Shown: positions 5,990 through 62,685 of the stretch, in pieces | Position numbering within the stretch: position 1 is the stretch's first letter | Layout: each line of letters starts with the position of its first letter | NCBI GenBank assembly: GCA_963920765.1 | Contig: OY987243.1 | Coordinates: 29,077,060-29,141,059 of the forward strand | DNA: 64,000 bases | Origin: Ulota crispa | Taxonomy: Eukaryota > Streptophyta > Bryopsida > Orthotrichales > Orthotrichaceae | Direction: 5' to 3' | The notes under the pieces: model-generated | Database searches by the model: none | What the model was told of the DNA's origin: nothing | The model's input: the letters and a program-made list of their open reading frames with translations, nothing else | Made by a program: the position numbers and the translations under genes

Positions 5990-6944
5990 TTAAAACCCTA
6001 AATGACCAAGTCCTTTTTTCTTTGAAAATCACTGAAAACTGTCACTTTTGGGGGAATGAGTATTAATGCAGGAAAAAAAGTTTTTTTGGAAATTCAACTG
6101 TAAGATCTTGCCCTAGACTGTGGGAGGTACTTGTGGAAAAAAATTCAGCTCATTCTAGAAGTAGAGGAGTGAGATATTGACATTTGAAGTGAAAAAAAAA
6201 GTTTTTTCCCTTGCTGCTCAAAAATTTCAGAAGCCTTTGACGGCTCTTATATCAAAAAAATTGCTCGCAAAGTTGAGGTTTATTTTTCCCATGTAGAAGA
6301 CCAAATTAGGTAAATGTGGGAGAATTTTCAAATGAAACGGAGGTGTGGATCATACTTTGTAAAATCCTGCAATGCCGTAATGCCATGAAATTTGCATATA
6401 CACATGGCAAGATTGGAGGATTTAAGTAAAATTGAGAAATATGAATTACTTTGATCCAAATGGTGAAAACCAAGGAATCTTGGTCTACTACAACTTGGGA
6501 AAAAAAAAAGGTCAAAAAAAAAAACACAAAGAGCTCAAAAAAGGAAAGCAACAAATTTTATAAGTGGCAAAAAGAATGGAGGTTTGGGAGTCCCATGTCT
6601 ACCCGCAAACTAAAACTTCTCATAACTTTCATCTCATCAATCAAAATTGAATGATTCAAAGATTCCCACATTTGTATAAATCTAAAGAACCAGTTTCAGA
6701 TTTTTATTTTAAAAAACTGCAATTTTGAATTTTTTTGGGCTGCCCAATCTTTGCCTTTTTCATAAATTCATGCATAACTTCTTCAGTAAATGTGAGAATG
6801 AAGAAAAAGTTAAATGCCCTCGTAGATCTTTGAGTTGCCCACCTTCAATAAAAGTTTCAAAAAATCACAAAAAGTAGATTAGCTATAGGTACATGCCTGA
6901 AATCCATTTGTCCCTGATGGGACAGTTGGTCCCTTTGAGGTTAA
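5990..6944. mobile_element. TTAA-flanked TIR element, family A copy 1
   Basis: The left end is TTAA followed by AACCCTAAATGACC. The right end is GGTCCCTTTGAGG followed by TTAA (6941-6944). Internal sequence matches the copies at 50917-51840 and 61743-62685 along its length: CACTTTTGGGGGAATGAG, GTTGAGGTTTATTTTTCCC, CATGTAGAAGACCAA and ATAACTTTCATCTCAT. No transposase ORF is present, so it is non-autonomous. The short open frames inside it are shadows. Confidence 0.7.
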
Positions 6945-8052
6945 TAAAATATTCTACTATATATAATTAATTAAAGCCATATTCAAATTTAAGATGAGTT
7001 TTTTTTTTTCCTTTTTTTATATCCCGATTTTATATTGAATTCCTACATTAGTTGTTACTAGAATTTTATATAGAATGCATCTTAATACATTCGGATTGTT
7101 CCATAAAAGAATGGAGCCCAAAAGTTTGTTGTTGAAGAAAGTGGAGTCTCACTTTTGCCAATATCACTATTTCCCCTTCTTCTAGGTTGTTGCCTATGAT
7201 AAGATACAACGCAATAATTGTGCAATTGTTACTTATAACAAAAGCATAATGAGATATTTGCTAAATTATTGTCTATGACAAAGACATAATGCAATGTTTG
7301 TGAAGCATGGACTCCATCTTCCTGAAAACAAACTCTCAGGCCCCACTCCCACTAAACTAACAAATCCATTTGTTATTGCCATGATTCAAAATGTTTATTC
7401 TGGAGTGTCTAAGAATAATTGCAAATAAAAAAACACAAACAGAATCTAAAAGCACTGGAAAGTTTCAAAATCCCACTAGTTGAAAGGTTTCATTTGATAA
7501 TTCCCGGCTATTGGGGTCACGTGGAATAACCTCATTTTTTTGCTTGGAACGGGGAATACATTCTGGGAATATACATTTGCTTGACCCATTCTCTCACAAG
7601 TTCCACAAAAGTATCTAAAAAACAATTTTGGGAACTCACGTCCAAAACAAAAACAAACTCTCCTTACAAAAACGCATGGTGCATAAAAAAAAATTGGAAA
7701 GACCTCAAAGCAACTCAAATACGTCCGTACATACGATCGCAAAGGGCTTTATTGACGTTCCAGGGTTAAATGTGCCAGTGTAAATGGACACTCAAACTGC
7801 AGGTTTCACAAAAGAGTCCATTTTCCAAATTTCACTTTTGTTGTATTTGGTCACTAATCCAGTGAGCCAAGTGCTCAAGGTCATGCAACACCAAAATAAA
7901 CCAGCACTTTGTAAAAAAGCAAGTAGCAACCTCTACTTCTTTGAGTAAAAATATGTTTTTTAGATTTTTACTCTCAAATTTTTTTGCTTCGTTGAAGAGT
8001 GACTATTTGTAATCTTCACAAACCAATATCTCCAACCTTCTGCTCTTGAATG
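6945..8052. other. gene-free region with repeat debris
   Basis: No supported gene. A sequence ending ACGTTCCAGGGTTAA at about 7752-7766, preceded by CAAAGGGCTTT, matches the right terminus of the TTAA family also seen at 32140-32183 and 31030-31055. The other end of this copy was not identified. The open frames at 7476-7769 lie over this repeat. Confidence 0.45.
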
Positions 8053-8060
8053 GTGGACAG

Positions 8061-8357
8061 CAGGGCCTTTTTTTTTGGCTTTTTGGTGCCAGATTGCACC
8101 CAAAATAAATCTGGCTAAAAAACATTAAAAAAAATGCCATAAAACTTGAATGATTTCACCACTAGTCTTCAATTTTTTTTAAAAAAATTGGATGAAATCT
8201 CCAAATTGTGGATGAAAACCAAATATTAGACATATAGTATGTACTAATGTGATATTTTCTATCCAACATGTGGATGAATGTTGAAATTTGCAGCACCACT
8301 ATAACATTTTAAATAGCCACCTTCACACTTCTTAAAATATGAAAAAAAGAAGCCCTG
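8061..8357 (+). mobile_element. hAT-like MITE with perfect 8-bp target duplication
   Basis: The 297-bp element begins CAGGGCC and ends AGCCCTG. It is flanked on both sides by GTGGACAG (8053-8060 and 8358-8365). Eight-base target duplications with CAGGG termini are characteristic of the hAT superfamily. No coding capacity. It shares its body, in opposite orientation, with 8861-9153. Confidence 0.85.
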
Positions 8358-8365
8358 GTGGACAG

Positions 8366-8852
8366 GTTAGTTTTTATTAAAAAAATGCACAGAACCTTGA
8401 GCAAAGTGGTTAGCCCCCAATGTTTCTAAAAGTACCATTTACTTCTGGGGGCATATTCCCAAGCCATGCAAAGTACCACCAAAATGACCAGACATACTTG
8501 GACAGTACTGTACTGGCTGGATTTCTCTGATCTCCCATGTTTTTTGTAACATAGAATAGAATGCATAGAATTTTCCATCCACCAGCCAGTTATGAGTGGG
8601 GTATATTAATGCACGGTGCCTTCCTGCTCTGCTAGCTCTCTCTCTAAGTTACCGGTAGTCAGTCCATAGTCTCTATACTCTACCCAAGTAACCCAACCAC
8701 TCCCAAACATGATGACTCTCATCCATCTATTCATCACCATCATCATCATTAGTCCAGTCCGGAACATTACTAGCACGCATGGACAACTCCTTTATGGAAC
8801 TTGTCCATGCTGCCCGTACGCCTTGCTGACTTCCTCGTAGCCATGCAAGACC
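8366..8852. other. spacer between two inverted hAT-like MITEs
   Basis: About 490 bp of more mixed composition, including CT-rich and CAT-rich simple stretches (CATCACCATCATCATCATTA near 8730-8750). No gene recognised. Confidence 0.4.
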
Positions 8853-8860
8853 CTTCCATC

Positions 8861-9153: not shown

Positions 9154-9173
9154 CTTCCATTCCTCCTACCTAA

Positions 9174-9935
9174 TTAACCCCTGAGCGCCCATGCCATTCT
9201 TACCAAAATCAAGGTTTTGTGAGACCTACAACTTTGATGCATTGTATCTTAGTCAATTGGATAATTCACAAAAAGTTACCATTGAAAACAATGGAACACC
9301 TACTTAGAAAACAACTTGCAAATTTTGGGAACAATTGACCGTGCAAGATGGGAGATTATAACACTTGATCAAACAACATGTGATGGCAAAATCTCATTTT
9401 TTGGTAAGTAGTCGCTATTTGATGATTTTTACAACATTTTATAAGCCCTGGATTCATCTTAAATTTTGTGAGCAGCAAGATCCAATTTGAATGCACACAC
9501 ATGTAAATTATTGAAGATTGCACTTTGTTTTATGTCAAGTTTTAGGGCTTCACATTACTATTGCACGGAAAACAATGACCAGCACAATTGGTGACAGTTT
9601 CCATAATAAGGGTTTAGAACATGCTTGAACCCTTGCTAACAAATTTCTAGCTACCACAGATCACACACAAAGAAGCTTGCAAGGGATGTTGATTGGTTAC
9701 AACCTGCTAAACGTTGCTTGCCACCATGCCCTATATGGTGTTTCACCCAACCAAATCTCTTGCAGCACTTGTATAACATTTGGCTTTCCTTGCCATTACT
9801 CCATTAGCACGGACAACTTGAATGCGTCCATAATTGTAGTTTATAGCAAGTTCAAAAAATTAGATCCAATGCCTCAAACAAGCCTTTGAAATCATGGAGC
9901 AATAAGATCCTATTGCTAGGGCGCTCAAGGATTAA
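9174..9935. mobile_element. TTAA-flanked TIR element, family S
   Basis: The left end is TTAA then CCCCTGAGCGCCC. The right end is GGGCGCTCAAGGA then TTAA (9932-9935). The two termini are inverted repeats of about 13 bp with one or two mismatches. It is about 754 bp between the TTAA sites. A 70-codon plus-strand frame inside shows no transposase motifs. Confidence 0.7.
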
Positions 9936-10450: not shown

Positions 10451-10606
10451 TACTTCAATGTGCCTCTTAAATAATCATTTGACTATTCATCAAGGGGAGT
10501 ATAAGATAAAGCTCACCAAACTTAGAATGAAGTGTTTTGAAGGGCCATTGCTAAGAATATCCTCAAACCCAACAAGTATATCAACTTTGTAACAACACTC
10601 TCTGTG

Positions 10607-11292: not shown

Positions 11293-12207
11293 TTAACCCT
11301 TTAAAGACCACACACATTTTCACAAAATCCACTAGAAACCAGGGTAATAAACTTGGATGTGTGATTGAATCAAATATGGACCTGATTTCAATAATCCAAC
11401 TGTACAAATGGGAACTACACCTTGTTTACTATAAAGTATCAAAATTTCAACTAGATTTACCATTGGAGTTGAAATATTATAATGATTGAGTGAGTTGTAG
11501 GTGGAAAATCTCTAGTTTTTGTGCTTGTGTGGTTTTGGATGTTACTACTTCATACAAGATTTGTTTAAGAAGAGCCTTATATTTCTAAAAACTAGAGTTT
11601 CTCAACTTTCCAATGAGACCAAATTCACACAAAATGGATAAAAATAGCAATCACAAGGTATAGCTAAGTGGACAAAAAGGATAAAAAATCCCACTTTGTT
11701 TGCTACCCAAAAACAATTTTATTAGAAATTTGATAAATGCTATGGAAAATCCAATCACTGAATATAATAAAGAATTGGCCTTAAATGTAGGACAAGAAAT
11801 TTTTACTATGAAATGATAGCACCATTTCAATAGATCTTCAGATATTACAATTATACTACTACCGTATAGAAAAACAATACAAGTGTATTTCTTGAGGAAT
11901 TTGAAAATTTGTAGGATTGCACAATTGAAATTTGACATTCTTCTTGGATGTTTGATGTATTGTGTTGTTGCTTTGATCCATCTTTGACCAAATATGAGTA
12001 CATATTTTGAGGCCATGCCATATAAACATCATTATTTATCAAATCACATGCTTGATTTTATTGTTTTTTTATTTGGTTGGATGCAAAATTCTTGTGAGCA
12101 CAAGCGTTCTTCGAGATCGGTTTCCAAATTATTGAACAATTTTACTCTACAAGCCAAAAACTACTCTCCCGAACCAAAATATGGTTCGGTGGTCTCTAAA
12201 GGGTTAA
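11293..12207. mobile_element. TTAA-flanked TIR element, family P
   Basis: The left end is TTAACCCTTTAAAGACCAC. The right end reads GTGGTCTCTAAAGGGTTAA. After reverse complementing, the 19-bp ends differ at one base. A subterminal hairpin (CCGAACC...GGTTCGG) lies at about 12169-12190. Open frames inside (11651-12016 minus, 121 codons) show no transposase signature, so it is taken as non-autonomous. Confidence 0.8.
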
Positions 12208-23507: not shown

Positions 23508-23534
23508 TGGCCATTTTCTTCTTGTGGTTGCTAC

Positions 23535-27400: not shown

Positions 27401-29238
27401 ACATCTCCTGTGTAGGAATTCATTCATGAACTCCCGTTCTTCTGGTTCTAGTGTTCCAACTATTAGTGATATCCCTTTGCACCAATGCAGTGACGTCAAC
27501 CACTTCTGTTCGTGTAACAGAATGTACTGACATGATCGGAGAGTTGATTTATTGCACCTTGGCAGGTGATGAACCTCATTGGAGATGTCAAGGGAAAGGT
27601 GGCAGTAATGGTTGATGATATGATTGATACTGCCGGTGAGCTTTCTCTCTGTAGTCTGTCGGCATTCATTGTTCAGTCGTTAATTCTACCCGTGAGAAGC
27701 GCGTTGGATTTTCTATTAGGGAACGTGTCTTGATATTACCGATCACCAAACTATTATATCATCACCGGAGTTAAAAGTTCTTTCGCATTTTAAAAAGCGT
27801 AACACATGACACATGATATTAACTATCCTTCTGGTAGATTCTTAGATCCCATTGAAAGAACAGGTGTCTATGACGAGGTGTGCTTCAACCGAATGTTCTG
27901 CTTGCTGAAGCAGTTTTGCCCGTGCTGACAAGTTGTTTGTGCATTTTCCAGGTACCATCTATAATGGTGCAGCCCTTCTTCATGCAGAAGGAGCTCGTGA
28001 AGTGTATGCTTGCTGTACGCATGCCGTTTTCAGGTAGGTTCTGCATTAAATCTAGGGGAAATTACAAATAGGGGCATGAAAATGAAAAATATTACAGATA
28101 GGGGCATAGTTTCAAATTATAATTTGTAAATTTTTGTAATTTTTTTTGGTGCAGACATTGGTTGGTTTAGATTTTAGATACATCACAATGATCACATTAA
28201 ACGCCGATGAACTTTCAAAAAATTTAAAAGTTTCTCCAAAAATTGTCATCCCCTTTATTGAAACTTCTTTGTTTAGGCTTGATTTGGAGAGGCATTTAAG
28301 TTTTTGAAAGTTAATTAACATCAAATATGATGTATCTAGATCAACCAATGTCCAAACCAAAAAAAATTACAAAAATTTATAAAATTATTTTGAAACTGTG
28401 CCCTATTTGTAATTATTTTGAAACTGTGCCCCTACCTGTAATATTTTTCATTTTAATGCCCTTATTTGTAATTTCTCTTAAATTTGTCCCGATGCTCTTT
28501 GTCGCGCCTTAAGGTAGTCGGCTCATAAACTGTGCACCTTCTTAAATGTACCTTTCACGTACATGTTGTTTTTCACAGTTTTCAGTAATGTATAGGCCGT
28601 GTACATTTAAGAAGGTGCACCGTTTTAGAGCCCTATGACTTTCCACTTCAAAATTTCATAATTAATTTCACAAAGCTCCAAAAAATTTGAAACAAGTTGG
28701 GTTAGATGTCAATTCCTCTTGTCTTTCAAGGAAAATTTACTGAAAAATATTTCAGAAAGTTTCACCTCCCAAAATTCAGTTTCAGCCCTTAGATGCCCGG
28801 TTCTTGAGCCTCCTACCTTACCTTGTTTTGTTCTGCCTCGTTCTATGTTTCCTCTCTCGCTAGCTTCTGCCCCGACGCCGAACGGTACAACGGCAATATG
28901 GTTGCTTAATGTTCAATTATCCTCCTTTTCTGTGTCCTCTTGACGTCGTCCCTTGTGATTGCAGTCCACCTGCTTTAGAGAGGCTTTCAGGAGGATTGTT
29001 TCATGAAGTCATCACCACCAACACAATACCGTTGCGAGAAGAACAATACTTTCCACAGCTGACTGTACTATCTGTCGCCAATCTCCTGGGAGAAACGATT
29101 TGGCGAGTGCACGAGGAAGGCTCCGTGAGTAGCATGCTAACCCACTGCACATCTAACATATTTGCCGTCGTATCTTCAGTTTTTGACTGCTTAGACCCTA
29201 GGTCATCAGTCGCCTTCACTCGTGTAAACGCTGAGTAA
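24409..29238 (+). CDS. PRS: ribose-phosphate pyrophosphokinase (PRPP synthetase), chloroplast-type
   Basis: It makes PRPP from ribose 5-phosphate and ATP for nucleotide, His and Trp synthesis. Seven exons join in frame: 26130-26312, 26420-26668, 26938-27081, 27195-27362, 27566-27635, 27952-28033 and 28965-29238 (389 aa). Landmarks in order are [30 protein letters not shown], the dinucleotide/ATP flexible region [18 protein letters not shown], the metal site [12 protein letters not shown], and the PRPP loop [11 protein letters not shown]. Near the end, [15 protein letters not shown] is the conserved plant C-terminus. The first exon is probably at 24409, where ATGGCGATGGCG opens a Ser/Arg-rich, transit-peptide-like stretch. 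A phase-0 donor at TCG/GTGTCT near 24484 would join exon 2, but this is uncertain. The reading frame runs about 32 residues past the usual end (SVSSML). Intron 7 carries two repeat elements. Confidence 0.92.
24567..25480 (+). repeat. direct tandem duplication of about 450-467 bp in the PRS 5' intron
   Basis: GCCGGCACGTTCTTTTGCAT recurs 449 bp later. Homology runs through TATCATGCTGTTTG, CCAACTCATCACA, GATTCAGTGAGTGCTT and GGAGATCTGATAATTCAAA, where the offset has grown to about 467. The two units differ by scattered substitutions and small indels. Confidence 0.85.
25485..26129 (+). other. remainder of the PRS 5' intron
   Basis: Non-coding sequence between the duplication and exon 2. It ends in a good acceptor (TACTGGTTGCAG). 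No repeat family recognised. Confidence 0.5.
28055..28477 (+). mobile_element. Mutator-like MITE, family B copy 1, in PRS intron 7
   Basis: The terminal inverted repeats are long (about 50-60 bp): GGGGAAATTACAAATAGGGG at the left, and its reverse complement with ATTTTCATTTTAATGCCC at the right. Flanks TTAAATCTA and TTAAATTTG are a degraded 9-bp duplication (7 of 9). It is homologous to 32195-32629. Confidence 0.8.
28508..28825. mobile_element. TIR element family U, copy 1, in PRS intron 7
   Basis: The ends AAGGTAGTCGGCTCATAAAC and GTTCTTGAGCCTCCTACCTT are imperfect inverted repeats. It contains a perfect 20-bp hairpin pair (28532-28551 and 28601-28620). The body from CTATGACTTTCCACTTC onwards matches 50618-50800. 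Confidence 0.65.
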
Positions 29239-29891: not shown

Positions 29892-31659
<1,768 letters not shown>

Positions 31660-31968: not shown

Positions 31969-32183
31969 TTAACCCTTGAAGGGCCCTTGGGCTTTGGAGA
32001 TACGGTACCAAATACGGTCACATACACTATTCAGAAGTTTGAATTAGCTGGAAGTTAAGTGATATAGTTGTATGATGATAAGTGCATAAAAAAATTTGGA
32101 AAATCCTTGGAATAGCCCAAATATGTTTGTATACACAACCGTACATACGGCCACAAAGGGCTTTCAGGACGTTTAGGGGTTAA
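31969..32183. mobile_element. TTAA-flanked short element, family M
   Basis: The left end is TTAACCCTTGAAGGGCCC. The right end is CAGGACGTTTAGGGGTTAA. Inverted similarity of the ends is only partial (CCCYT.AA then GCCC), so this is a candidate. It directly abuts the 9-bp duplication of the next element. Confidence 0.5.
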
Positions 32184-32194
32184 AAAAGTTTATT

Positions 32195-32629
32195 GGGGAA
32201 ATTACAAATAGGGGCATAAAAATGAAAAATATTACAAATAGGGGCATAGTTTCAAAATAATTACAAATAGGGACGCAATTTTAAAACAATTTGTAATTTT
32301 TTGTAATTTTGTTTGGTTTGGACATTGGTTGATTTAGACATATCACATTAAACGTTAGCTAACTTACAAAAACATTGAGGTATTTCTAAAATTTGCCATC
32401 CCTTTTACTAAAATTTCTTTATTTAGGCTTAATTTGGAGAGCCCTTTAAGTTTTTTGGAAGTCAACTAACATGTAATGTGATATGTCTAAATCAACCAAT
32501 GTCCAAACCAAAAAAAATTACAAATTCTTACAAATAATTTTGAAATTGCACCCCTATTTGTAATTATTTTGAAATTGTGCCTCTATTTATAATATTTTTC
32601 ATTTTCATGCCCCTACTTGTAATTTCCAA
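32195..32629 (+). mobile_element. Mutator-like MITE, family B copy 2, perfect 9-bp duplication
   Basis: It begins GGGGAAATTACAAATAGGGG and ends with the inverted counterpart. It is flanked by AAGTTTATT at 32186-32194 and at 32630-32638. A 9-bp target duplication with long inverted termini suggests a MULE-derived MITE. It is homologous throughout to 28055-28477. Confidence 0.88.
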
Positions 32630-32694: not shown

Positions 32695-32930
32695 TTAACC
32701 CCTATATGTCAGGAGGGCATAGTAGATATGTTGCCGTATATTTGGCATTTGCTACCAATAAGAAATTTGTTACTTGGGATCTCATATAGCTCACTAGAAC
32801 CGCGTTTATCTATATTTCAATTTCTTCGTTGATCTCAAATGTAGTAGAGATGTGGATTCATTCCAAATACAAGAAAAATATCTCGTATTAAATTGGTCGC
32901 AAAGAGCTTTTAATGATGTTTAAGGATTAA
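32695..32930 (+). mobile_element. TTAA-flanked element, family N
   Basis: The ends are TTAACCCCTATATGTC and GATGTTTAAGGATTAA, imperfect inverted repeats. The body recurs at 30880-31055 and, inverted, at about 33180-33398. Confidence 0.65.
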
Positions 32931-33179: not shown

Positions 33180-33398
33180 ACCAACCGATCGTCAGAAGCA
33201 CCAGTATAATACAATGTATTTTTCTTGTATTTGGAATGCATCCACACCTTTACTACATTTGAGATCAACAAAGAAATTATAATAGAGATCAATGCGGTTC
33301 TAATGAGCTAGTCAAGATCCCAAATTAAAACTTTTTGTTGGTAGCAAATGCGAGTTATACAGCACTAGACATACTATGTCCTATGGTCAGTTGGTCTT
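33180..33398 (-). repeat. inverted partial copy of family N
   Basis: TTTTTCTTGTATTTGGAATG, CCACACCTTTACTACATTTG and GTTGGTAGCAAATGC are reverse complements of segments in 32720-32930. It runs up to the TTAA of the next element at 33399. Confidence 0.6.
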
Positions 33399-34051
33399 TT
33401 AACCCCTCAAGGCCCAAGGGGACCAAAACTGTCCCTCCTTGTTTGTAATTTGGGATGCCTAAATTTTCTTCATGATTAATTACAATGATTTTTTTTTTTA
33501 AAGTTCTTGTTGAAGTCTTGTTTTAGTAGCAAAAGTCTAATTTTGAAAATGACTTATTATGATTTTTCTATTTAAGATTTTATGCAAGGGTGTCCATTGC
33601 AAATCTTCACTTTCTAGTGTTGAGAGCTCTTGAAAATGAGCCTAAAGTACATTAGAACTTGGAGAATCAATCACATTAGAAACTTAATTTAAAAAGTTGT
33701 AGAATAGATTTTAAGAAGCTGTAAATTGATTAGGGTTACACATGTTGTACTTTACATACTCATATTATTTTGGTATCCTCAATTTTAAATTTGAGATGTG
33801 AAAAGATGATTGAAAGATCTCAAATCACTTTCACAATTTTAACACCCTCTTGATCAAATGTTATAATCTTTCAATCTATAAGTGATATTGTTGTGTTTTC
33901 TTTTCCTATGCGATCTTTAACATATCTAGCTTGAATTTGTATGGTTACAATTTTAAAAAATTTGATGCAACTTATCAAAATGTTGACATTTTATTCATCC
34001 AAGAACAGATTCTAAGATACTCAGGAAAGTGCATAGGCCTTGAGGGGTTAA
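33399..34051 (+). mobile_element. TTAA-flanked element L (left half of an inverted pair)
   Basis: The ends TTAACCCCTCAAGGCC and GGCCTTGAGGGGTTAA are perfect inverted repeats including the TTAA. It is 645 bp inside. It is homologous in inverse orientation to 34048-34948, sharing the central TTAA at 34048-34051. Confidence 0.85.
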
Positions 34052-36795: not shown

Positions 36796-38660
36796 TAATT
36801 ACTATGTTTTGATGTGTCACTAATTGCACCTTGATAAAAATTACTCAAAGAAGCTATAACTGATCATATTTATCCAAATGGGCAAGGGGGGAGAGATCCA
36901 CCTTCAAGGCAGTTGCAAGTTGCAACGAAATATCTATAAAATTAGCTCACAACGCTAAAAAGACTATTAAACATGCCGCAATTTGATCTAGCACTCTATT
37001 ATTCTCATTTCTCATAGCAATAAAAAAATCCAATGTGTCACAAATTGCAACTTAATTAACATTGTGCACATACGCAATGACTGATAATATTGTCCAAAAA
37101 GATAAGGGGAGAGAAATTCAATTTTAAAACAATTGTTCCCAAAGTGTTTATAAAATTAGCTCACACTGCCCAAAACATGATCAAGCGTACCAAACTTTAA
37201 TATAGCATTGTGTTATTCTCATTTCTCATAGCAATAAAAAATTGTGGTGGAAGTATAGGTAATGGAAGAGAAATTCAAATTTTAAAGCAATCATTAGAAG
37301 AAAAAATGTCCGCAATGATATGTTCAAATTGACTAAATGTGGCTAAATTTATAAAAAAAAATGTCCAAAATGACAAAAAATGACTAAATTGACAAATCCA
37401 AATTGACAAAAATTGTCCAAATTGACATTATTCCCTTACAATTAATTGTTCCCAAAGTATTTATAAAATTAGCTCACAATGCTAAAAGCAGTATCAAGCA
37501 TGCCAAGTTTTAATCTAACACTCTATTATTCACATTTCTTGTAGCAATAAAGAAATCCAATGTGCCACAAATTACAACTTAGTTAGCATCGTGTAAACAC
37601 TGAATGACTGATAATATTGTCCAACAAGATAAAGGGCGAGAAATTTAATTTTAAAGCGATTGTTATCAAAGTGTTTATAAAATCAGTTCACAATGCTGAA
37701 AGCATTATCAAGCATGCCGAATTTTAATCTAGCACTCTAGTTTTCTCATTTCTCATAGCAATAAAAAAATCCAACGTGTCACATATTGCATCATGGAAAC
37801 ACGCAGTGACTGATAATATTTGTCCAAAAAGGCAACGGGAACTCAAACTTTAAAGTAATTGTTCCTCGAATTGTTCCCATATTATTTATAAAATTAGCTC
37901 ACAATGCTAAAAAGCATTATCAAGCATGCCAAAATTTAACCTAGCACTCTGTTATTCTCATCTCTCATAGCAATGAAAAAATCTAACGCGTCACAAATTG
38001 CTTCATGTAAACACACAATGGCTGATAATATTTGTCCAAAAAGGTAAGGGGGACAAAAATTTAATTTTAAAGCAATTGTTGCCAAAGTGTTTATAAAATC
38101 AGCTCACAATGCTAAAATCATTATCAAGCATGCCAAATTTTAACCTAGCACTCTATTATTCACATTTCTCATAGCAATAAAAAAATCCAATGTGTCACAA
38201 ATTGCAGTTTAGTTAGCATCGTGCAAACAGGCAATGACTAATAACATTTATCCAATAAGACTATGGAAGAGAAATTCAATTTTAAAGCAATTGTTCCCAA
38301 AGTATTTATAAAAATAGCTCACAGTGCTAAAAAGCATTGTCAATCATGCCAAGTTTGAATCTAGCACTCTATTATTCTCATTTCTCATAGCAACAAAAAA
38401 AATCCATCTAGCACTTTATTATTCTCATTTCTCCTATCAATAAATGAAATCTAATGTGTCACAAATTGCATCATGCAAACACGCAATGATTTATAATATT
38501 TGTCCAAAAAGGTAACGGGAACAGAAATTCAAATTTTTAAGCAATTATTCCCAAATTGTTTATAAAATCAGCTCTCAGAAAAACATTATCAAGCATGCCG
38601 AATTTTAACCTAGCACTCAATTATTCTCATCTCTCATAGCAATAAAAAAATCGTGGTAGA
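36796..38660. repeat. satellite-like tandem array, unit about 210-216 bp, about eight copies
   Basis: Each unit carries AAAATTAGCTCACAATGCTA, TATCAAGCATGCC, CTAGCACTCTATTATTC and TCATAGCAATAAAAAAATCC, then a GCAATGACTGATAATAT segment. The CATAGCAATAAAAAA landmark recurs near 37014, 37224, 37540, 37756, 37968, 38172, 38388 and 38638. The larger gaps contain a small insertion (about 37300-37430) and a local duplication near 38400. Copies are diverged, so the array is old. Confidence 0.88.
37300..37430 (-). repeat. TGTCCAAATTGACA-rich insertion inside the satellite
   Basis: Short repeated words (GTCCAAATTGACA, AAATGACTAAATTGACAAA) interrupt one array unit. Nearly the same word set, reverse complemented, occurs in the copia element at about 54147-54290. 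Confidence 0.6.
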
Positions 38661-38766: not shown

Positions 38767-41700
38767 TTAACCCTCACTAATCCTCACCCACACGGCCTGC
38801 CCCGGCACGCCCGCCTGCACTGCGAAGAGCATGTACCAGCTCGGCGGAGCCACCGTCGCGCTCCTCGGAGCCGTCGCCCAGGTCGCATACGCCCAGCTCG
38901 GAGTCGACCACGGCGTCGTCGTCGCCAGCCTCGCCATGCGCTGCCCTTGCGAGTATGAGTGCGTGGAGAACGGCGAGCTCACCAAGTTCATCTCGAATTC
39001 CCCCTTGAGTCGATACGCTTTGAACACCACCAGGAACGTGGACCCGTACGTGATCGTCGTCGTGGACAGTCTCCGAATCGATGGCCGCAAACTATCGTAG
39101 CTGCGAGCGCCACGCAATTCTTACGGTCAGAAACAAAATCGCTTGCAATTCGATGAAGAAATGTGTAATAACGAACATCCAATCGCAAATGTCGCATTTA
39201 TTAGGGCAGAAGAAAACAAACATCTTAACCACCAATGCTTAATGCCTGCAATAGCGAGAATTTTAGATTAACTTACGAGAAATTGATTGAAGAAGGTTAG
39301 TGTATGTTCGGGGAGAGGATTTCTGATGAGAAGAGACAGAGTTTAGTGAATCTAGGGTCTCAGGATTTGTGAAAACTGGTGATGGACACGAATTACAAGG
39401 CTTCGGTTAACCTCTGAAGCTGCATGAATACTTTAAACGACCTGATAGTTTTTTTGAATGCGAGAAAATATATCGGGAGGAGGTTGGTGAGGTTACGTTA
39501 TAATCAAATTTGACAAGTTTTTGGAATCCATGAGTAGAATAGAATAGAGTTATGGAAATTGAACTAATGTAGGAGGCTCTAATCTGGATTAGGCATTTTG
39601 AACTGACCATGTAGGGTCACAAAAACAGAGCACAGAGGTTATTAAATGGGTCACATTTTTTATGTTTAGAAATTGTACTTGTGTATGCATTATTTTAGGA
39701 ACTTTAAAGAGTGACATGAGTCATATGAATCATTGTTGTGTGTGTTTATTGGTCATAACCAGTGTGTAGGGAGATTTTGAGCTTTTTCAACTAAAAGCCT
39801 ACATTTCTCAATTTCAGTAAGTTTTTTCAGTGGATGCACATGCTATTCTCCATATATTTACACTGGAAATTTTCCAAAAACTTAGTCGGTTTTTAGCTTA
39901 TTTATTTAAATTTCAGTCGGTTATTTGCACATTTCATTTGGTTGACTTTCTATTGTTTTTCAGCTCTCCCCGTTCATTGGTCATAATTGTGTTTAGATTT
40001 GTCTTTCAGTAAAATATAGATACATGTCATACTAAAATAAATGAAAACTTATTCTCAATCATGATTTGAGTATTAGAATATGGAATGGGTGCTTGAGAGT
40101 ATGGAATGGGTGCTTGCTTGCATGCTTTTAAGAGCCTTATTGGAATATTTTTGGCTTTGTAATGGTTGATTTTAGGACTCATGTACTCCATTTACAAACC
40201 GCCTTTGCATCATGAATGCTATCACCTATAATCAAGAATAGCTACCTATGCACCTTTTGCTTTGATAAGTTGTAGTTAATTCATACTAACTCAAAAAATT
40301 TCAAATCAAATGACCACAGAACTGTCTCTACCACAAATATTTCCATTTTACCAAGTTGCCCTGATTTTTCCACAGAAGCGCACCGCTAAGATGGTCCATT
40401 CACGAGCCTCCTACCTTATGTGAAAATTTTGAATGAGTTTCTCGAGGTCTAAGCAACAGAGGAGTGAAGATTTAGCGGTGTCAGGGTTAGAGACTTACAC
40501 GGAATCGAGATATGGCGGAGAGAAGGCCTCGACGCGCAGCTCAGTAGGAAATTCGCCCGTGAATGTATAAAACTGGTGCGTGTTGCTGCCGGCGATGAGA
40601 ACACGTCCATCTGAGAGGAGATTGGCGGTGGAGTGGTACATCCTTGGGATAGTCGAAGCGGCGAGCGTTCGGAATCTCGACGCTGCATTCCGAGTATCAT
40701 AAAGAACGGGGTGGAGCGCAGGCGCCGAGGCTTTCCCCCATCCCTGACATCCATTCCTGGCGCCATTGATAAGCAGCACATCGGCAGTCGGCAGAATGAG
40801 CATGTCTCCCATGGTGCGCCGCAAGGGCATCGTCTCCATGATCCAATGCGCATCCTCAGCCGTGGCAACGATTCTGCCGCAGTTATTCGACGCCGGCAAC
40901 GTCGAGCCGTCACTTTGCTGCGCCGCTCCGTACTGCGCTCCACCGCACACGAGCACCTCCGCCACGTTGAAATCGTTCGCATGATCCAACGGGAGCATCA
41001 CCGACGATCCAGCCGACGGATAATTCCGGGGCTCATTCGGAATTCTCGGGTATCGCTTTTGAATCTTGTTGTTTTTGTAGTCCAGTAGAATGGAGTCCCG
41101 GTTTGCGAAGATGAAGAGGTTCCCGTCCGGGAGCAGATGCACGAACGGGTACAGGTTGTCTGTTTGGTCGTCTTGCACGTCTTGTAAGAAGCTCAATGCA
41201 AAAGCTCCTTCGGTATTGGTTCGCTTTGGTACGAATTCGTAGGTGAACACGTTTCGTCCGCCGACGACGATCTGGCGTCCGTCTGGGAGCAGCTGGTTGG
41301 TGGCGTACCAACGACCGTCCGCAAGCTGCTCGGATTGGGACTCCTCCCAGTCGCAGGACTGGTATGTTGGACACGGGTCCAGGCGGCGAATCTTGTACAA
41401 GCCTTCGTTGTCGCCCCCTGTTTGTATCATGGAGCCGTTGGCGATGAACTGCCCGCTGCTGCACCAGGTGTTGGAGTGGATTGTCAATGGCCGGACGTCT
41501 CTGTTGCTTGGGTCCAGCATCACGGAATGCGCACTGCAGTCGTGCTTCAGCACCCGGTCGTTTGAATTGTCCCTGCAGTATCCGTTGGTGAAGTTGATCT
41601 CTGATGCGCCGATGTTGGTCTGGTCCAGCATGATCACCGTGTCGTAGTGCGTCACCGCTGTGTGCATGGATGCGATTCCTGCGTCTCCCACCAGGAGCGT

Positions 41701-41805
41701 CCATTGTCCTGCAGGTGCTTCTGCTGCATCCACCAAGCATGACGTCAACATCACCAGTGCCACATTGAACATGAATGACAAGCGAGCCCCATGAGGTACC
41801 TCCAT
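38767..41805 (-). CDS. GLOX: glyoxal-oxidase-like radical copper oxidase, secreted
   Basis: Family members oxidise aldehydes or alcohols and release H2O2, often in the cell wall. Two exons, 41805-40499 and 39100-38767, join at GT/C with a GTAAG donor and a TCGCAG acceptor. They give 546 aa, the usual family length. Residues 8-28 are a hydrophobic signal peptide. The N-terminal Kelch-like propeller is followed by the C-terminal Ig-like domain in exon 2. All five active-site residues are visible: Cys115 (NTWCSSG) and Tyr167 (GRWYAT) form the expected Cys-Tyr cofactor, with Tyr390-His391 (RMYHS) and His483 (FSTHSYS) as copper ligands. The stop in the intron (TAA within the donor) would truncate an unspliced product at 436 aa. 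Exons are much richer in GC than the surrounding DNA. Assignment is firm; the substrate is unknown. Confidence 0.94.
39870..39990 (+). repeat. dispersed repeat in the GLOX intron
   Basis: GCACATTTC.TT.GG.TGACTTTCT.TTGTTTT, with CGGTTCATTGGTC-like words, matches about 1900-2000 at the left of the window. The family was not identified. Confidence 0.55.
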
Positions 41806-44444: not shown

Positions 44445-47400
44445 TCAATCGATGAGAGTGTTGATTGTCATTATACCTACAGCTGCTGCAACATGCCAGG
44501 CAGCATGAATGTAGGGAGCGTCTGGGTACATGTCATCCGCAACGAACAACGCCCCTCCAGCCAGCGAGGTTACTGCGTGCAAAGCGTGCGCCCCTCGAAG
44601 CTTTGGATTCTTAATCACCTTCTTCGCAAATGTGGCCTACACAAAACATGTGAATAGATTAGAAGTGCAAATAAGACAAGCATGGCTATGTGGCACTCTA
44701 TTCATGAATTTGCTAAGGATAGAAATAACAGACGCAAACTAGAGTATGGTGGGAAATCCACCGTTAACTTTTTGTACTTCTTTAGGCAGCATAAAACAAG
44801 CAATGCCAGTTTGAACCAAGACGACGCTATTTTGTGAGCACAAAACAGAAAGCCAGAAGATAACATTATTTTGTAAGCCTAAAACGGAGAGCCATAAGCA
44901 GTGAGCCAAGATTTTGTGAGCGGGAATTGATTCGAAGTTTAAAATCAATGAAAAGACTAAAAAAAAGCAAGTTTTGCAAGAGATAAGAATATAAAATGCA
45001 CAATTACAAGGCCCTATGTACAGAGTTTTAGGTGAAATTCAATATTCTGAAAAAAATAATCTAAGCTCACAGCTCATGAATCCTTGCTCACAATATAGCA
45101 TTCCTTGTTTGAACCACTAATGAGCCTTACTCATTAGTTTGATAAAAAAAGCTCTGGGGTTGATCCTCTTTCAGTGCCCCATACTGTATAAATAAATGCA
45201 AAGAAGATAGATGTGAAACATTGGTTATAGTGTGCATAAGAGCATATTCAATGGCTACAATGTTTGACCAATCTATACAAATGGTGAATATACTAATATA
45301 AATACACCCAATTGCGACCCTAACTCAAAAGTGACACCTATTTTTGCGTGACATGCACATGATCTGAGCATGAATACCTAGAGTTGCATTCAAGTGCACT
45401 AATAACTGGCACTTTGAGAACTCGAAGATTATTCATATGGTGTCTCAAAGTTACATGCTAAGATGCATTGGTGTTGTCTTCAATTGCTAGCAAGATCAGA
45501 GAGACATTTAGACAACGTAATGAAAACTCGAATGCTTATTTGATCACTTTTAGGAAAACATGGCTTATGTAGCTAACACGGACCTTACCGAATAACGCGA
45601 TATTCGTTAATTTGGGAAAAATGGTAAATTTTGGGACTTTCAGGAACTGAGTCAGGAAGTTTGAGGTGATCACCTCAAACCGACACGTGCCCTCACCTGA
45701 GAGGAGGCATTTGAGAGGGAAAAAATCTTAGTGGCTCAGATTGAATCTGATACCTTCGAATCTGGTTTTAAAGTAACTTTTTGGGTTTCAGGGGAAAACA
45801 AAGTGGGACCCCTGTTTTTCCCAAATTAACGAATATCGCGTTGAATAGCCAATAGAGTATGATATTCCAATTAGAGTTTAGTACCATGAACCTGCACGAG
45901 GTGAAAATATTACCTCCGCAAGTGCTGTGTGTATGGCAGTGACAAGGAGAGGCTGGAATGGCAGCATCATGATTGAGGCAAGCATCAAAGCCCTAGGATG
46001 CTTGTAGTCCTGCTGCACAGCTGCCGACATGCACTGCCACCACAGAATGTGTTTACACTTCATCACTTTGAATAAAGAGGTCCTGGACTTGAGTTTCCAG
46101 TATTCCGGTTAATATAAAGGGAAAATTTCATGGATACCCGTGAAGTTTGCCATATTTTCATAGATACCCCAGCTTTTTCAGAAATTTCACAAATACCCTT
46201 GGACCAAAATTTTCAGATGTTCTTTTTGTTGTGCATGTCACTTTCTTCTCCCTTTGTGCGCACACTACCTCTTATTTTGTTATGCATGCGCACAAAGGAA
46301 GAAGGGAAGTGGCATGCACAACAAAAAAACATCTGAAAATTTTAGTGCAAGGGTACTTGTGAAATTTCGGATAAAACAGGGGCATCTATGAAAATATGGC
46401 AAACTTCACGGGTATCCATGAAATTTTCCCTAATATAAACTACTCAATTGCAAACGCATAGAACTTGCCATATGACGTGCACTCCACGCATTTCCCAGAT
46501 CAGACGAAGCTTTAAGTAGTCTAGGGAGCTTTTTCATGATTGACTGGTCACCGACATTTTGCACGCAAACGGGAAAAAGGGTCACTTAATTCTACAGCCC
46601 TCCGTTGTACTCTCAATTTTTTTACTAGTTGAGTTTTCTGCTTAGGCAGATCAGGGATCGCCACCCCTTATCACCCCCCATGGGGGGCTTTAGTCAATTG
46701 CAATCGCATACTGTTTATAATTCAACTGTACGTGAGCTGCTCTATTAAAATGACTGCTATAACGAAAGTGAGAGAGGAGAGAGTAAGTACAAATAGGAGG
46801 TTTTACCACAGTCGAGGTGGCAATCATCGCATAATCCCCCCATCGTGTACCTTTCCGAGCCTCTCCACGGGACGTGTGATACAAGGTTGAAGCCATGCCC
46901 ACCCCAATCAATGAATTGGAATACATTGTAGTGGAGAGACTCTTCCTGCAAAAGATCGAAGGTACTCAATTCACTGAAAGGATATGAATTAATGGACGGC
47001 ATTAGGGACCACTTATGAGACACAACACAGACGTAATATTCCATCTACATGTAAAAGTAAACTTCCTCTTTACTTGTTGATAATCTTGCTCATCAGGTTT
47101 AATCCTAAAAGTGCCAAACAAAAATACAAAACCCACTTTGAAGAGTGATACGTGTCTTCTTTCATAGCATAGTCTTCATTTTAAAATTTATTGGTGTATT
47201 TTATTACTTTCCGAATGCTTTATTTCAAACTCATATAGATATGAAAGAACTTTTGGCCATTTGCGCACGTAGGGGTTAAATAGATCGAAATTCATGAAAA
47301 ATTGCGCTTTTGACAAGCACGAGCAGGGTAAACATCATTCTTGAGTGGGTTGGTACTTTGCACCATTGAAGCAAGAAAACAGAAATCAACGTTTCCTTAC

Positions 47401-50916: not shown

Positions 50917-51840
50917 TTAATCCCCAAAGGACCAAGCCATTTTTTCAGTGAAAAAGACTGAAAACTGCCACTTTTGGGGGAATGAGAGGAATAGTATTTT
51001 CTTTTTTTAATAAATCCAAGTAGGATCTTGCTCTAGACAGCATGAGGTACTTGGGAAAAAAAATTGAGCTTATTCTAAATGACAAGGACTGAGATTTTTA
51101 CAAATGAAGTGAAGAAAAAAGTTTTTTTTCATATTGCTTAAATTTCAAACGCCGTTGACCACTCCTATATCAAAAAAATTGCTCTACGCAAAGTTGAGGT
51201 TTTTTTTCCCATGTAGAAGACCAAGTTAGGTATGTGTGGGAGAATTTTCAAATCAATTGGAACTATATAGCACATGGGAACAATAAGTAAAAAGAAGTAG
51301 AGAATGGGTCAAAACACTAACTTGTTAAGAATTTAGTTATTGAAATGAAAAATGCAAATCGCAACGGTGATAATGTTGTAATAAACAATCTACTTCCTTT
51401 GGTTTAGTTTTTTTTTCCAAAATATTGAAAATTAAGTAAAATAAAGGACTTCAAAGTTTATTTTAGAGTAGAGAATCTAGAACTGCCTGCTAACAAAAAC
51501 TCCTTATAACTTTCATGTCATTGATTGAAATTGAATGATTCAAAGCTTCTCATGTATGAAAAAATCTAAAGAACCAATTTCAAAATTTTATTTTAAAAAT
51601 ATATAATTTTTAAGAAGTTTTTGGGCTGCCCGAATGGACAACCCTCCCCAAAATTTCAGAAAAACATGCATAACTTCTTCAATAAATTTTGGAATGAAGA
51701 ATTGTTTTGATGCCCATGCAAATCTTTGAATTCCCCACCTTCAATATAAGTTTTAGAAAATCACACAAATTAGTTTACCCATAGGTACATGACCAAACCC
51801 CAAACGGTCCTTGAAGGGACAACGGGCCTTTAGGGGTTAA
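50917..51840. mobile_element. TTAA-flanked TIR element, family A copy 2
   Basis: The ends are TTAATCCCCAAAGGACC and GGCCTTTAGGGGTTAA. About 916 bp lie inside, homologous throughout to 61743-62685 and 5990-6944. It lies next to the truncated end of the copia element. Confidence 0.82.
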
Positions 51841-54723: not shown

Positions 54724-55623
54724 TTAACCCCTAAAGGACCAAAGTCCCCTTGGGGGACTTTTGGGATTTTGGGTAGGCTTGTGTAACCTCAATTTTTTAC
54801 ATGATTTTTTGAAACCTTTAATGAGTATGTAGGAATGTATAAGGTTTGTGGGATGCAAAAAATCATGTGATTATGTCACATGGTTTACAAGTTATGGGAT
54901 TTTTTTTGGCCAAAAGCAGTTTGAGGGGCAGCTTGGACAAGGGAGAAAATATTGACTTTGGAGGGAGTAAAGCAAGGAGGGGTTGCCACATGTTGCTCTG
55001 GTAGCCCCCATTACTTTGTCATTGGCCCCTTTCATTTCCAATTAGGGGATCAGAAATGGCTTTGGGAGCTTCTAAATTTTAGAGATTTTGAGGTTTTTAA
55101 TTATTATTTTTTTGACATTTGAAGTACATATTTATCTTCAAACACACGGTTTAGATTTTCCATATCTAAAACCATGTGGTGAGAAACTTCACTCAAAAAT
55201 GTCATAGTGTATTTGCAAAACTTATCATATAGTGGCATTGTAATAATTTTGAGGATGAGTTTAGGGTCTTTGATTGCCTTGAAAATTGGTGTACAAAGGT
55301 CTAACTTGATTACCTATAAGATAAAATTACAACTTCAAGGTCTGTAGTGCAAAAAAATATCAGCAAATGGTGGTCAAAGCCATGTGAAATTTTCGGGCAC
55401 CATGGGAAAAATAAAAACTTTTTCCTTGAGATGCTCATAACTTTCAATCCGTATGGTCAAATGTCACGAAATTTTCAGTGATTCTTTTTCTACAAGTGCA
55501 TTACAAGATCCCATGGTTGGATTTCCAAGAACATCATTTTGTTGAAATTTTTGATGAACGCAACAATAGAGGCACTTTTGATTGGTTTTTGGCAAAAAAT
55601 GGGCTTGGTAGCTTAGGGGTTCA
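54724..55623. mobile_element. TTAA-flanked TIR element nested in copia gag
   Basis: The left end is TTAACCCCTAAAGGACC. The right end is AGCTTAGGGG then TTCA, one base from TTAA. About 892 bp. It splits the gag region. If the element and one TTAA are disregarded, the two gag halves meet in one frame across a conserved SLP.SY box, which dates its insertion after the copia element. Confidence 0.85.
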
Positions 55624-60232: not shown

Positions 60233-60673
60233 TCATTCAAAATAATCAAAATCAACATGCCAGTTTTGAAATGTTAAGATCACACTAAGAATTTCTTTAT
60301 TGTAAATATCATAGTTTTTTTCTACCAACGACATTTTCAAACTTCTATACGTACATGGATGTAAATAGCCATTCTCTCCATACTGTGAAAGGATTGCACA
60401 TATGGCCATATCAAAAGTATCATTTTCAACTACAAAGGGCTTTTCAAAATTGGGATGGAGTAATACTGGTGCCCAAATAAATTTGGACTGAAGATCTTTG
60501 AATGTCATGTTTGCCTGAGGCGTCCATATGAATGGCTGATTTTTCTGCGTTAATGCTATGAGAGGCATTGCCACCTTTGAGTAATCACAAATAAACCGGC
60601 AATAGAAATTTGTGAATCCAAGGAAAGATTCAGTTTCCTTGATTGAGTTTGATAGAATATTCAAGGAGGTCAC
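60233..60673 (-). pseudogene. Ty3/gypsy retrotransposon fragment (RT end and RNase H)
   Basis: An open stretch of 146 codons contains FLGFTNFYCRFICDYSK and PLIALTQKNQPFIWTP from the end of a gypsy reverse transcriptase. FVVENDTFDMAICAILSQ and NYDIYNKEIL follow, from the RNase H domain. No other gypsy domain or LTR lies nearby, so it is a truncated relic even though this piece is open. Confidence 0.88.
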
Positions 60674-61742
60674 TCAATGTATTCTTTAGAAACCTCGTGC
60701 AATCAAGTAAATTTTCCACCCCCTATTAACTTTTCAATAAATTTTGATTTAGCTCCAAATTTTTGGATGTTCTCACTAAATCATTATACCTTTTATGTGA
60801 AAAAATTTGAATTCAAATGAATTAAACAAGATATCCAAGAGTGCAATTGAAAATTGTACTAAAATGGTTGAATTCTCATTTCAAATATTTATCAAAAATG
60901 CATTTGGAGGACAATTGCATCCAACTTTGGTATACAAAAACAATAATCAAGCCTTCATTCATTGGCAACTAAAAAACATTTTTAAAAATATTTCTTAACA
61001 TATAATATATGGAGTCACAAAAATTCTAGCTATATAGTATATTTGTTTTCTTCCAAAATTTGTAATTTAGATTTTTTTTTTTTAATCCACAATCTAAACT
61101 TTTAATATAGAAAAACACACTATAAATTTCTCAAACTATTTTATTGATTTTTTACAATATAAGATAGGGGTCAAAGATATTGATTACATGTGTATTTGAA
61201 AAAACAAGAAGTACATCCTCATAAGAGAATACTGATTGTAATAATGGTTAATGGTCTAGTAAGTTTACTAGCTTTCATATAAAAAATATTCAATTAGCTA
61301 TTGATAGTATTGAAGATATTAATAAATAAGAAGATTGCAATAATATGTCTTATGCTAGAAATGATATAATCCATTGCGACATGACATTGGGTGTTGATGG
61401 CTCATGGAGTTTAAACTAATGATTTTCACATCTTCAAAAAATGGTTACAAAGCATAAATTATGTGTTGATGGGCAAAATGTGGTTCAATATTCTAGGCCA
61501 ATTTTGATATGAGATTATTTTTTTGAATTGCATATAAATATGAAATTTTATAAATCATGTTTTTCATTAATAAGTTTGTAATGCATTTTGTGACACAAAT
61601 TGTTTCTTTGCATACTTAATTTTTTCAACAAATACTTTCATATAAGGTGTTTATAAATTTAATCAAACTATGCTTTTGTAAAAACAACTTTTTTTTAGTT
61701 TCTTTTTCTTCTTTATGAAAATGCAATTTCAATTTGCAATGA
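60674..61742. other. gene-free AT-rich DNA
   Basis: Nothing recognised beyond short low-complexity tracts. Confidence 0.45.
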
Positions 61743-62685
61743 TTAACCCCTAGAGGCCCAAGCCCTTTCTTCTAGTGCAAGTCACTCAGTGTTAATTGCC
61801 TCTTTGGGGGGAATGAGTAGAAAAGTAGGAAATTAAGTTTGTTTTGCAAATCCAACCGTAGGATCTTGCATGAGACCAAAAGAGTTACTTGTGGAAACAA
61901 AATCAGCTCATTCTAAATGGAGAAGAAGGAGATATTTACATTTGAGGTGAAGGGAAAAGATTTTTTCCTTGTTGCTAGTAAATTTCAGAAGCCTTTGACC
62001 ACTCTTACTTGAAAAGAATTACTCTACACAAAGTTGAGGTTTATTTTTTCCATGTAGAAGACCAAGTTAGGTATGTGTGGGAGAATTTTCAAATCAATTG
62101 GAACTATACAACACATGGGGGAAAATAGTAAGTAAAAAGAAGTAGAGAATGAATCAAATCACTAAATTGTTAAGAATTTAATTATTAAAATGAAAAATGC
62201 AAATCCCAATGGTTATAATGTTGTGATAAACAATCTACATCCTTAGGTTTAGTTTTTTTTCCAGAATACTGAAAATTGTGGAAAATAAAGGACTTCAAAG
62301 TAAATTTTAGAGTAGAAAATCCATAACTGCCCACAAACTAAAACATCTCATAACTTTCATCTCATTGATTGAAGTTGAATGATTCAAAGCTTCCCATATA
62401 TGAAAATAATCTAAACAACCAATTTCATAGTTCTATTTTTAGAAAATACAAATTTTAAAGAAGTTCTTGGGCTGCTCGGATTGCCCTCCCTCCCCCGAGT
62501 TGTAGAAATTCTTGCATAACTTCTTTGTCGAATGGTAGAATGAAAAAAAAAAGATTCCCAAATAGGTCTTGGAATTTCCTACCTTCAATAAAAGTTCAAA
62601 AAAATCACAAAAACTAGATTAGCTATAGGTACATGCCCAAAATCCATTTGTCCCCCAGGGGGACAGCTAGGCCTTTAGGGGTTAA
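61743..62685. mobile_element. TTAA-flanked TIR element, family A copy 3
   Basis: The ends are TTAACCCCTAGAGGCCCAAG and CTAGGCCTTTAGGGGTTAA, with intact TTAA on both sides. 935 bp. The best-preserved family A copy. No transposase coding. Confidence 0.88.

Follow-up and report, generated by a model that had tools for sequence, protein, structure and literature searches.

The window, meaning the whole 64,000-base stretch of Ulota crispa DNA that was analyzed, contains TTAA at 482 positions. The first-pass annotation had listed 11 intervals in it as elements bounded by TTAA with CCC termini. When the ends were read directly, TTAA together with CCC, CCT, or TCC-type tips was present at both ends of 9 of the 11 intervals. 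Overall the claim stood for 9 of the 11; it was not supported for 47099-47279 as an element or for the right boundary of 32695-32930. When the window was scanned blind, 13 TTAA end pairs matching at 9 or more of 14 bases were detected, 7 of which were listed intervals and 6 other or cross pairings. Over 100 dinucleotide shuffles, used as a control, the average was 1.5 end pairs and the highest count 5; the reversed window yielded 3. Genome copies were sought with 40 candidates scored per query, the query copy itself included, and the supported elements were confirmed as genome-wide repeats with TTAA and CCC or CCT termini that form several distinct families, as the annotation had proposed.

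The piggyBac-type element at 9174-9935, with ends CCCCTGAGCGCCC, was searched without flanks and had at least 39 other copies at 84 to 87% among the 40 candidates scored; 18 of the 39 were full length, and 18 stopped at 719-731. The element at 11293-12207, also piggyBac-type, has ends CCCTTTAAAGACC and a right-end palindrome that 0 of 200 shuffles matched. Searched with flanks, it likewise had at least 39 other copies (40 candidates scored), with boundaries exactly equal in 19 of the 39 and no more than 2 bases off in 31. Two piggyBac-type elements belong to the CCCCTAAAGGCC group. For the one at 61743-62685, at least 39 other copies at 87 to 90% were found (40 candidates scored), 26 of the 39 spanning 1-943, and homology to its relative L034 stops at -2 and 943; for the other, at 50917-51840, a relative at 83% (L057) is homologous up to stops at 1 and 927. 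The neighboring piggyBac-type elements 33399-34051 and 34048-34948 have a TTAA in common, the right one of the former. The former had at least 36 single copies at 90 to 93% (40 candidates scored), ending exactly at 1 and 653 in 24 of the 36, a search that tests the right boundary only because the query started at the left end. The latter is in part an inverted relative of it, at 77%, and a nested foldback, about 0.2 kb long and located at about 34483-34700, splits its sequence.

The remaining intervals were less regular. The piggyBac-type non-autonomous element at 5990-6944 has an eroded left tip (TTAAAACCCT) and, at its right end, a palindrome centered about 28 from the TTAA start; homology to its relative L050 (82%) stops at 4 and 956. 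In the piggyBac-type element at 54724-55623, the right terminal repeat is there, with TTCA in place of TTAA. The short TTAA-bounded element at 31969-32183 is of uncertain superfamily; it has relatives in L037 and L036 at 72 to 74%, with homology stopping at -4 and 216 and at -1 and 215, respectively. For 32695-32930 the left end is plausible, and the right boundary is doubtful because homology to the relative in L052 extends as far as position 469; its positions 20-203 are repeated inverted at 33200-33382. The interval at 47099-47279 was unsupported as a repeated element, with no relative among the window and the fetched genomic loci and with two ends unlike each other.

The TTAA preference expected of genome-wide copies was borne out. 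The exact 16-mer CCCCTAAAGGCCCAAG occurs 1,727 times in the genome (control, 0), and 1,448 of these occurrences (84%) directly follow TTAA. At paralogous empty sites a single 4-bp site was present, and the alignments ran ungapped over 204 of 204 bp at 93% and at 89%; in the best of them TCAG stands at the four bases, and TGAA flanks the element itself on the left. Among abutting copies, four pairs overlap by 4 bp and have one TTAA in common. At these paralogous sites, TTAA therefore behaves as a target duplication. It is scarcely conceivable that the ends are chance occurrences in AT-rich DNA, or that TTAA is a part of the element rather than its target duplication. Single end-like sites are indeed no commoner in the window than in shuffles (56, against a mean of 53.7 and an SD of 6.7), but the genome holds 45,509 occurrences of the generic end pattern against 328 in the reversed control, and another genome end count gave 14,651 against 1; the copy boundaries and the one target site at empty sites and between abutting copies also speak against both versions as far as the main families are concerned. 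Scaled up from the window, the elements suggest, very roughly, a share of about 8% of the genome.

Spread of the copies through duplication of chromosome segments, instead of transposition, is extremely unlikely. The copies are 7 to 16% diverged, stops are present in 110 of the 120 listed transposase matches (see below), and the pair at 33399-34948 was found again, whole or in part, at 3 other places, all of which would fit such an origin. When 300-base flanks were included in the query, however, homology to other genomic loci ended at the tips or a few bases from them for the elements beginning at 5990, 11293, 31969, 50917, and 61743, and empty sites exist.

A genome search with DDE_Tnp_1_7, the piggyBac transposase family, in which 116 of 528 candidates were scored, gave at least 120 matches over the cut-off in the 274.8-Mb genome (best E value, 1.3e-73) and no matches in 14 control genomes. 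None of these listed matches, at that depth of scoring, lies in the window, in agreement with the annotation, which had seen no transposase there. The gene copies are mostly decayed. One open frame of 476 amino acids matches insect piggyBac (6x67, 4e-20) and, more weakly, Myotis lucifugus piggyBat (9c0f, 6e-17). By motif scan, 10 of 25 distinct loci have all three catalytic aspartates, D268, D346, and D447, each of them within an open stretch, whereas the remaining 15 lack or have altered aspartates, L009 having N at the third; a putative C-terminal cysteine-rich motif resembling C-x2-C-x7-C-x2-C-x5-C-x3-C-x4-H, with some positions relaxed, was recognized in 13 of the 25.

Putative autonomous parents with DDE_Tnp_1_7 and matching ends, which the annotation had called for, were found at 6 of 20 fetched loci, where TTAA-CCC end pairs matching at 10 to 13 of 14 bases flank the transposase on both sides; these six full elements measure 5.0 to 5.7 kb. 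At the other 14 fetched loci there was no convincing end pair, and L017, L012, L018, and L020, whose end pairs match at 8 to 9 of 14, were not counted as full elements. The window ends were compared with two sets, one of 22 ends that included these four loci and a stricter one confined to the six full elements. Of the window's 22 ends, 16 resembled ends of the six at p ≤ 0.05, the best at 26, 25, 21, and 21 of 32; the other 6, both ends of 5990-6944 included, were no closer to them than shuffles. The left end of 33399-34051 matches the transposase element L016 at 26 of 32 bases, and the right end of 34048-34948 matches the left ends of the transposase elements L021 and L023 at 25 of 32. Even 47099-47279 has one end that resembles those of the six (p = 0.02). 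Sharing of ends with autonomous elements is clear in 33399-34051 and in 34048-34948, moderate in 61743-62685, and weak in 5990-6944. For the CCCCTAAAGGCC group, which is the commonest, the best end match adjoins the transposase of L017, and L017 is a candidate parent only, because its own two ends pair weakly (8 of 14). Positions 555-904 of 54724-55623 also match L017 (67%) on the downstream side of the transposase, as far as the right end of L017.

All six full elements carry a left-end palindrome with its axis at base 25 from the tip, comprising 41 of 48 pairs over the six and equaled by 0 of 20,000 shuffles (maximum 25). Their right ends, as far in as bp 106, have no palindrome axis in common (24 of 48 at best). 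Of the 11 window intervals, 5 had a significant palindrome near the right spacing, 3 had one that could be seen but did not reach significance, and 3 had none; in 19 other short copies the palindrome was weak. TTAA is also the target of the superfamilies Kolobok and Sola3, and its duplication by itself is not diagnostic of a superfamily. It is very unlikely, nevertheless, that one of these superfamilies includes part of the TTAA-bounded elements, the short ones in particular: the intervals 31969-32183 and 32695-32930 would suit that assignment, no palindrome having been found at the ends of either, whereas the end pairs enclose DDE_Tnp_1_7 transposases at the six loci, and the CCC...GNCC tips and palindrome spacing are as in piggyBac.

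It is therefore highly probable that the short elements are non-autonomous piggyBac members mobilized in trans by the transposases of the 5.0- to 5.7-kb piggyBac elements in the same genome. They are short, numerous, and free of transposase and have ends in common with autonomous elements, as MITEs do. The observed basis consists of repeats with TTAA boundaries, transposases within like ends, a one-ended palindrome at fixed spacing, single target sites, and very high copy number, from which we infer the biochemistry, the mobilization in trans, and the pairing of transposases with short families. If insect and bat piggyBac are a guide, the first ~16 bp (CCC...GNCC) would be contacted by the core of the transposase, and the left-end palindrome centered on base 25 by a dimer of its cysteine-rich C-terminal domain; the element would then be excised and inserted at TTAA, which would become the flanking duplication. 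The annotation's reading that a TTAA-targeting piggyBac-type transposase spread several families in this genome thus appears well founded, at the level of sequence, because both the TTAA preference and a DDE_Tnp_1_7 parent came out in its favor.

Insect piggyBac is about 2.5 kb long. The U. crispa elements, at 5.0 to 5.7 kb and with an extra conserved upstream segment, differ in this from piggyBac of Trichoplusia ni. In the available text on the latter (6x67, 6x68; PMC7351741), the DDE_Tnp_1_7 catalytic domain with three aspartates, the C-terminal cysteine-rich domain, the TTAA target, and the CCC tips are alike, and the left end is reported to carry a palindrome at bp 17-33, with its axis near bp 25, that is bound by the cysteine-rich domain. 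The same palindrome is described farther in at the insect right end (PMC7351741), unlike the right ends in U. crispa. That the palindrome stands at one end only, and at the base where the insect element has it, suggests an asymmetry of the ends that is both old and general. M. lucifugus piggyBat, as far as the text consulted describes it (9c0f; PMC11707139), is alike in superfamily, in TTAA, and in having a palindrome reported at the left end but not at the right, and differs in its three left-end motif repeats. The piggyBac-type MITEs of corals, Helicoverpa, and the ciliate Blepharisma are, in the portions of those reports available, likewise short, TTAA-bounded, non-coding, and piggyBac-linked; in U. 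crispa the host is a land plant, and there are tens of thousands of ends.

The annotation's remark that piggyBac is rarely reported in land plants fits the searchable literature, in which it is listed by name, turns up as traces in repeat annotation, or serves as a tool for transgenesis; it needs narrowing to the extent that reviews, in the parts available, list piggyBac among plant superfamilies and one abstract describes it as isolated from plants. Most work on piggyBac, and most of its use, has treated it as a transposon of animals. The PsaA of the genome examined here is closest to entries from the moss Physcomitrium. A moss genome loaded with piggyBac shows that the superfamily is able to thrive in a land plant. 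Such a genome also provides plant-adapted TTAA transposases and ends and raises the question of algal inheritance versus horizontal acquisition.

At many transposase loci, a conserved segment of ~88 residues lies 1.5 to 3 kb upstream of the catalytic domain, and the transposases with it are only about 28 to 36% alike. Compared with Pfam and PDB, the segment gave nothing convincing (best PDB E value, 0.31; best Pfam E value, 0.035, below the cut-off). We give even chances to the view that piggyBac, at ~8% of the DNA, is a major component in this moss lineage and owes this to many old and diverged subfamilies of transposase that have an undescribed N-terminal domain in common, possibly an accessory DNA- or host-binding module.

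In the window itself, a foldback repeat is situated between 31969-32183 and 32695-32930. Two unlisted TTAA ends whose partners were not found lie at 31050-31053 (TTAACCCTTAAACGTC on the minus strand) and 7766-7769 (TTAACCCTGGAACGTC on the minus strand), the latter matching the right end of 31969-32183 over 45 bp at 80%.

The DDE_Tnp_1_7 search of the assembly (274.8 Mb, 157 contigs) listed at least 120 matches, all above the curated cut-off, with 116 of 528 candidates scored; none was found in 14 control genomes. At least one stop was present in 110 of the 120 listed matches. A 476-aa open frame matched insect piggyBac 6x67 (4e-20) and piggyBat 9c0f (6e-17), and nine transposase frames showed 28 to 61% identity to one among them. 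In a motif scan of 25 distinct loci (28 minus three duplicate places), all three catalytic aspartates were found in 10 and the cysteine-rich motif, with some positions relaxed, in 13. The first-pass annotation had named the finding of such a transposase within matching ends as a test of its piggyBac-like reading, and this was borne out: in 6 of 20 transposase loci sampled outside the window (L015, L016, L021, L022, L023, and L027), TTAA end pairs matching at 10 to 13 of 14 bases flank the transposase, giving full elements of 5,027 to 5,746 bp. The other 14 had no convincing end pair. The sequences point to piggyBac as the parent of the short elements in the window.

The ends of the six full elements also look like piggyBac ends. 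Their left ends, upstream of the transposase, share a palindrome centered on base 25, counted from the tip, in which 41 of 48 possible pairs are present. None of 20,000 shuffles reached this value (the highest count was 25), nor did any of 3,000 when the axis was left free. The right ends had no palindrome at base 25 and no comparable common axis up to bp 106 (best, 24/48). As described in the available part of one report, the insect piggyBac palindrome bound by the cysteine-rich domain lies at bp 17 to 33, its center near bp 25 coinciding with the left-end axis found here (PMC7351741); piggyBat, from a similarly partial source, has a palindrome on the left end and none on the right (PMC11707139), like the six full elements. 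Among weaker candidates, left-end pairs numbered 6 of 8 in L012 and L018, 4 in L020, and 3 in L017. Near the base-25 spacing, a palindrome was significant (p ≤ 0.05) in 5 of the 11 window intervals, visible but not significant in 3, and absent in 3. It was weak in 19 other short copies, since the mean was 4.26 of 8 pairs at the base-25 axis versus up to 4.1 at other axes.

Upstream of the catalytic domain, a possible extra N-terminal segment of ∼88 residues is found repeatedly, with 16 open-frame matches at 14 loci in a profile search, 13 of them among the 20 transposase loci. Pfam gave nothing above cut-off for it, and PDB nothing convincing. When one copy served as the query, 37 genome matches were obtained, two being pieces of one place; in 19 of the 37 a listed transposase match lay 1.5 to 3.0 kb downstream, always on the same strand (about 0.1 expected by chance), and the remaining 18 may adjoin unscored transposases or be orphans.

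Within the window, which spans C2:29077060-29141059, direct inspection of each end upheld the TTAA with a CCC/CCT/TCC-type tip on both sides in 9 of the 11 intervals originally proposed; the right side of 54724-55623 reads TTCA instead of TTAA, and the left tip of 5990-6944 is eroded. A blind scan found 13 end pairs matching at ≥9 of 14 bases, 7 being proposed intervals and 6 other or cross pairings, versus a mean of 1.5 (maximum, 5) in 100 dinucleotide shuffles and 3 in the reversed window. Single end-like sites were no more numerous than in shuffles, and the evidence therefore rests on end pairing and genome copies. Five TTAAYCTAGCACTCTATTATTC-like copies at 37510-38605, spaced about 200 to 215 bp bar one longer gap, are a repeat array mimicking TTAA ends.

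The six full elements provide 12 ends for comparison, which 16 of the 22 window ends matched better than did shuffles (p ≤ 0.05). Among the best matches was the left end at 33399 with L016 left (26/32); the right end of the 34048 element matched L023 left (25/32, a score also seen with L021 left in the larger panel below) and its left end L023 right (21/32), while the left end at 61743 matched L015 right (21/32). Neither end of 5990-6944 beat shuffles. Against a larger panel of 22 ends, three from the window matched the right end next to the L017 transposase (22 to 25 of 32), and the last ∼345 bp of 54724-55623 are common with it (67%, E 1.7e-16). No further TTAA end lies between that transposase and the right end, which could belong to a neighboring short copy, as L017's own end pair is weak.

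In genome DNA searches, 40 candidates were scored per query, window copy included. For 61743-62685 (8,781 first-look candidates), 39 other copies were found at 87 to 90%, 26 spanning positions 1 to 943. For 33399-34051, 36 single copies were found at 90 to 93%, 24 ending exactly at 1 and 653, of which only 653 tests a boundary because the query started at the left end. The 11293-12207 query, with flanks, gave 39 others (37 at 89 to 92%, 2 at 84 to 85%), the proposed boundaries being exact in 19 and at most 2 bases off in 31. The 9174-9935 query, without flanks, gave 39 others at 84 to 87%, 18 full-length and 18 ending at 719 to 731. When intervals with 300 bases on each side were compared with the window and the sampled loci, homology ended at or a few bases from the element ends for 5990-6944 and 11293-12207 with L050 (82% and 86%), 31969-32183 with L037 and L036 (72 to 74%), 50917-51840 with L057 (83%), and 61743-62685 with L034 (86%). 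The right boundary of 32695-32930 appears doubtful, because its L052 relative extends to position 469; its L047 relative ends nearby. No relative of 47099-47279 was found in this set.

A TTAA preference of the flanks, also set as a test at first pass, held genome-wide: TTAA precedes 1,448 of 1,727 occurrences of CCCCTAAAGGCCCAAG (reversed control, 0). In 23 inspected loci, after 7 of 30 with the motif in opposite orientation were left out, the preceding bases were TTAA in 20, TGAA in 2, and TTAT in 1, or TTAA in 17 of 20 distinct elements (three were counted twice). To look for empty sites, the two flanks of each of 36 elements were fused at a single TTAA, and the window and sampled loci were searched with the product. 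Those of a 749-bp element in L046 matched L022 over 204/204 bp, ungapped, at 93%; the four bases there are TCAG, and TGAA stands to the left of the element itself, so that a single 4-bp site is demonstrated but the letters it first had are not. Joined flanks in L051 matched the other foldback arm of that locus (204 bp ungapped, 89%, one TTAA), and those in L034 aligned to the window at 78%, a 3-base gap adjoining TTAA. An L047 match (68%, gapped) was set aside as too weak. Four neighboring-copy pairs from the 11293-12207 search overlap by exactly 4 bp, one TTAA in common; in one (C5), the match of the partner starts 8 bases in from that partner's end, at a point that also reads TTAA. Window elements 33399-34051 and 34048-34948 likewise have one TTAA in common. 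TTAA is the target of these elements.

The end TTAACCCCTNAAGGNC occurs 14,651 times in the genome (control, 1) and the generic end TTAACCCYNNRNNGNC 45,509 times (control, 328); in the window there are 15 generic ends, a density 1.4 times that of the genome. The 11 intervals, doubtful ones included, make up 11.8% of the window, which scales from this one window to a rough ∼8% of the genome. Among the open-access papers listed on bryophytes, green algae, land plants, and plant MITEs, titles and abstract openings contained no bryophyte piggyBac elements; a moss genome paper with "piggybacking" uses the word in another sense. In the portions available, PiggyBac figures with the MITE superfamilies of angiosperms in one MITE review (PMC10004981), a plant transposon review names piggyBac and its tool use (PMC10794571), an animal survey states isolation from insects, fungi, and plants (PMC10813416), tables give 1,230 PiggyBac hits (122 kb) for C-Fern (PMC6890710) and one of 75 bp for Stipa (PMC8319324), and a land-plant review counts six TIR superfamilies without the word piggyBac (PMC9033089). 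The transposon is of a known kind; its host and abundance are unusual, and the accessory segment is possibly new.

Other repeats lie among the elements. A ∼0.2-kb foldback insertion with arms GGTAAGAGGCTCTAATTGCG sits at 34483-34700 inside 34048-34948, and the parts flanking it are contiguous at C2:27050632-27051937. The 33399-34948 pair recurs, whole or in part and mostly at 83 to 85%, there and at C1:26823281-26824363 and C3:8344717-8345671, hence either composites moving together or segment duplication. A high-copy foldback of about 433 bp at 32189-32627 (∼81% self-complementary; 7,119 first-look candidates) sits between two short TTAA intervals, with related copies near 28055-28475. An open frame of 436 aa at 40495-41805 (−) presumably resembles plant glyoxal/galactose oxidase.

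The psaA and psaB genes lie on one 112.5-kb chloroplast contig. Among the best 60 of 171 matches, PsaA was closest to PDB 6l35, 7ksq, 7kux, 7xqp, and 8htu (1,642 bits), followed by 9lut (1,610) and then ≤1,572; 6l35 and its companions come from the moss Physcomitrium patens, and the host is therefore probably a moss. Outside that contig lie 46 of 48 PsaA/PsaB matches, fragments in chromosomes C1 to C10 that are probably nuclear insertions of chloroplast DNA.
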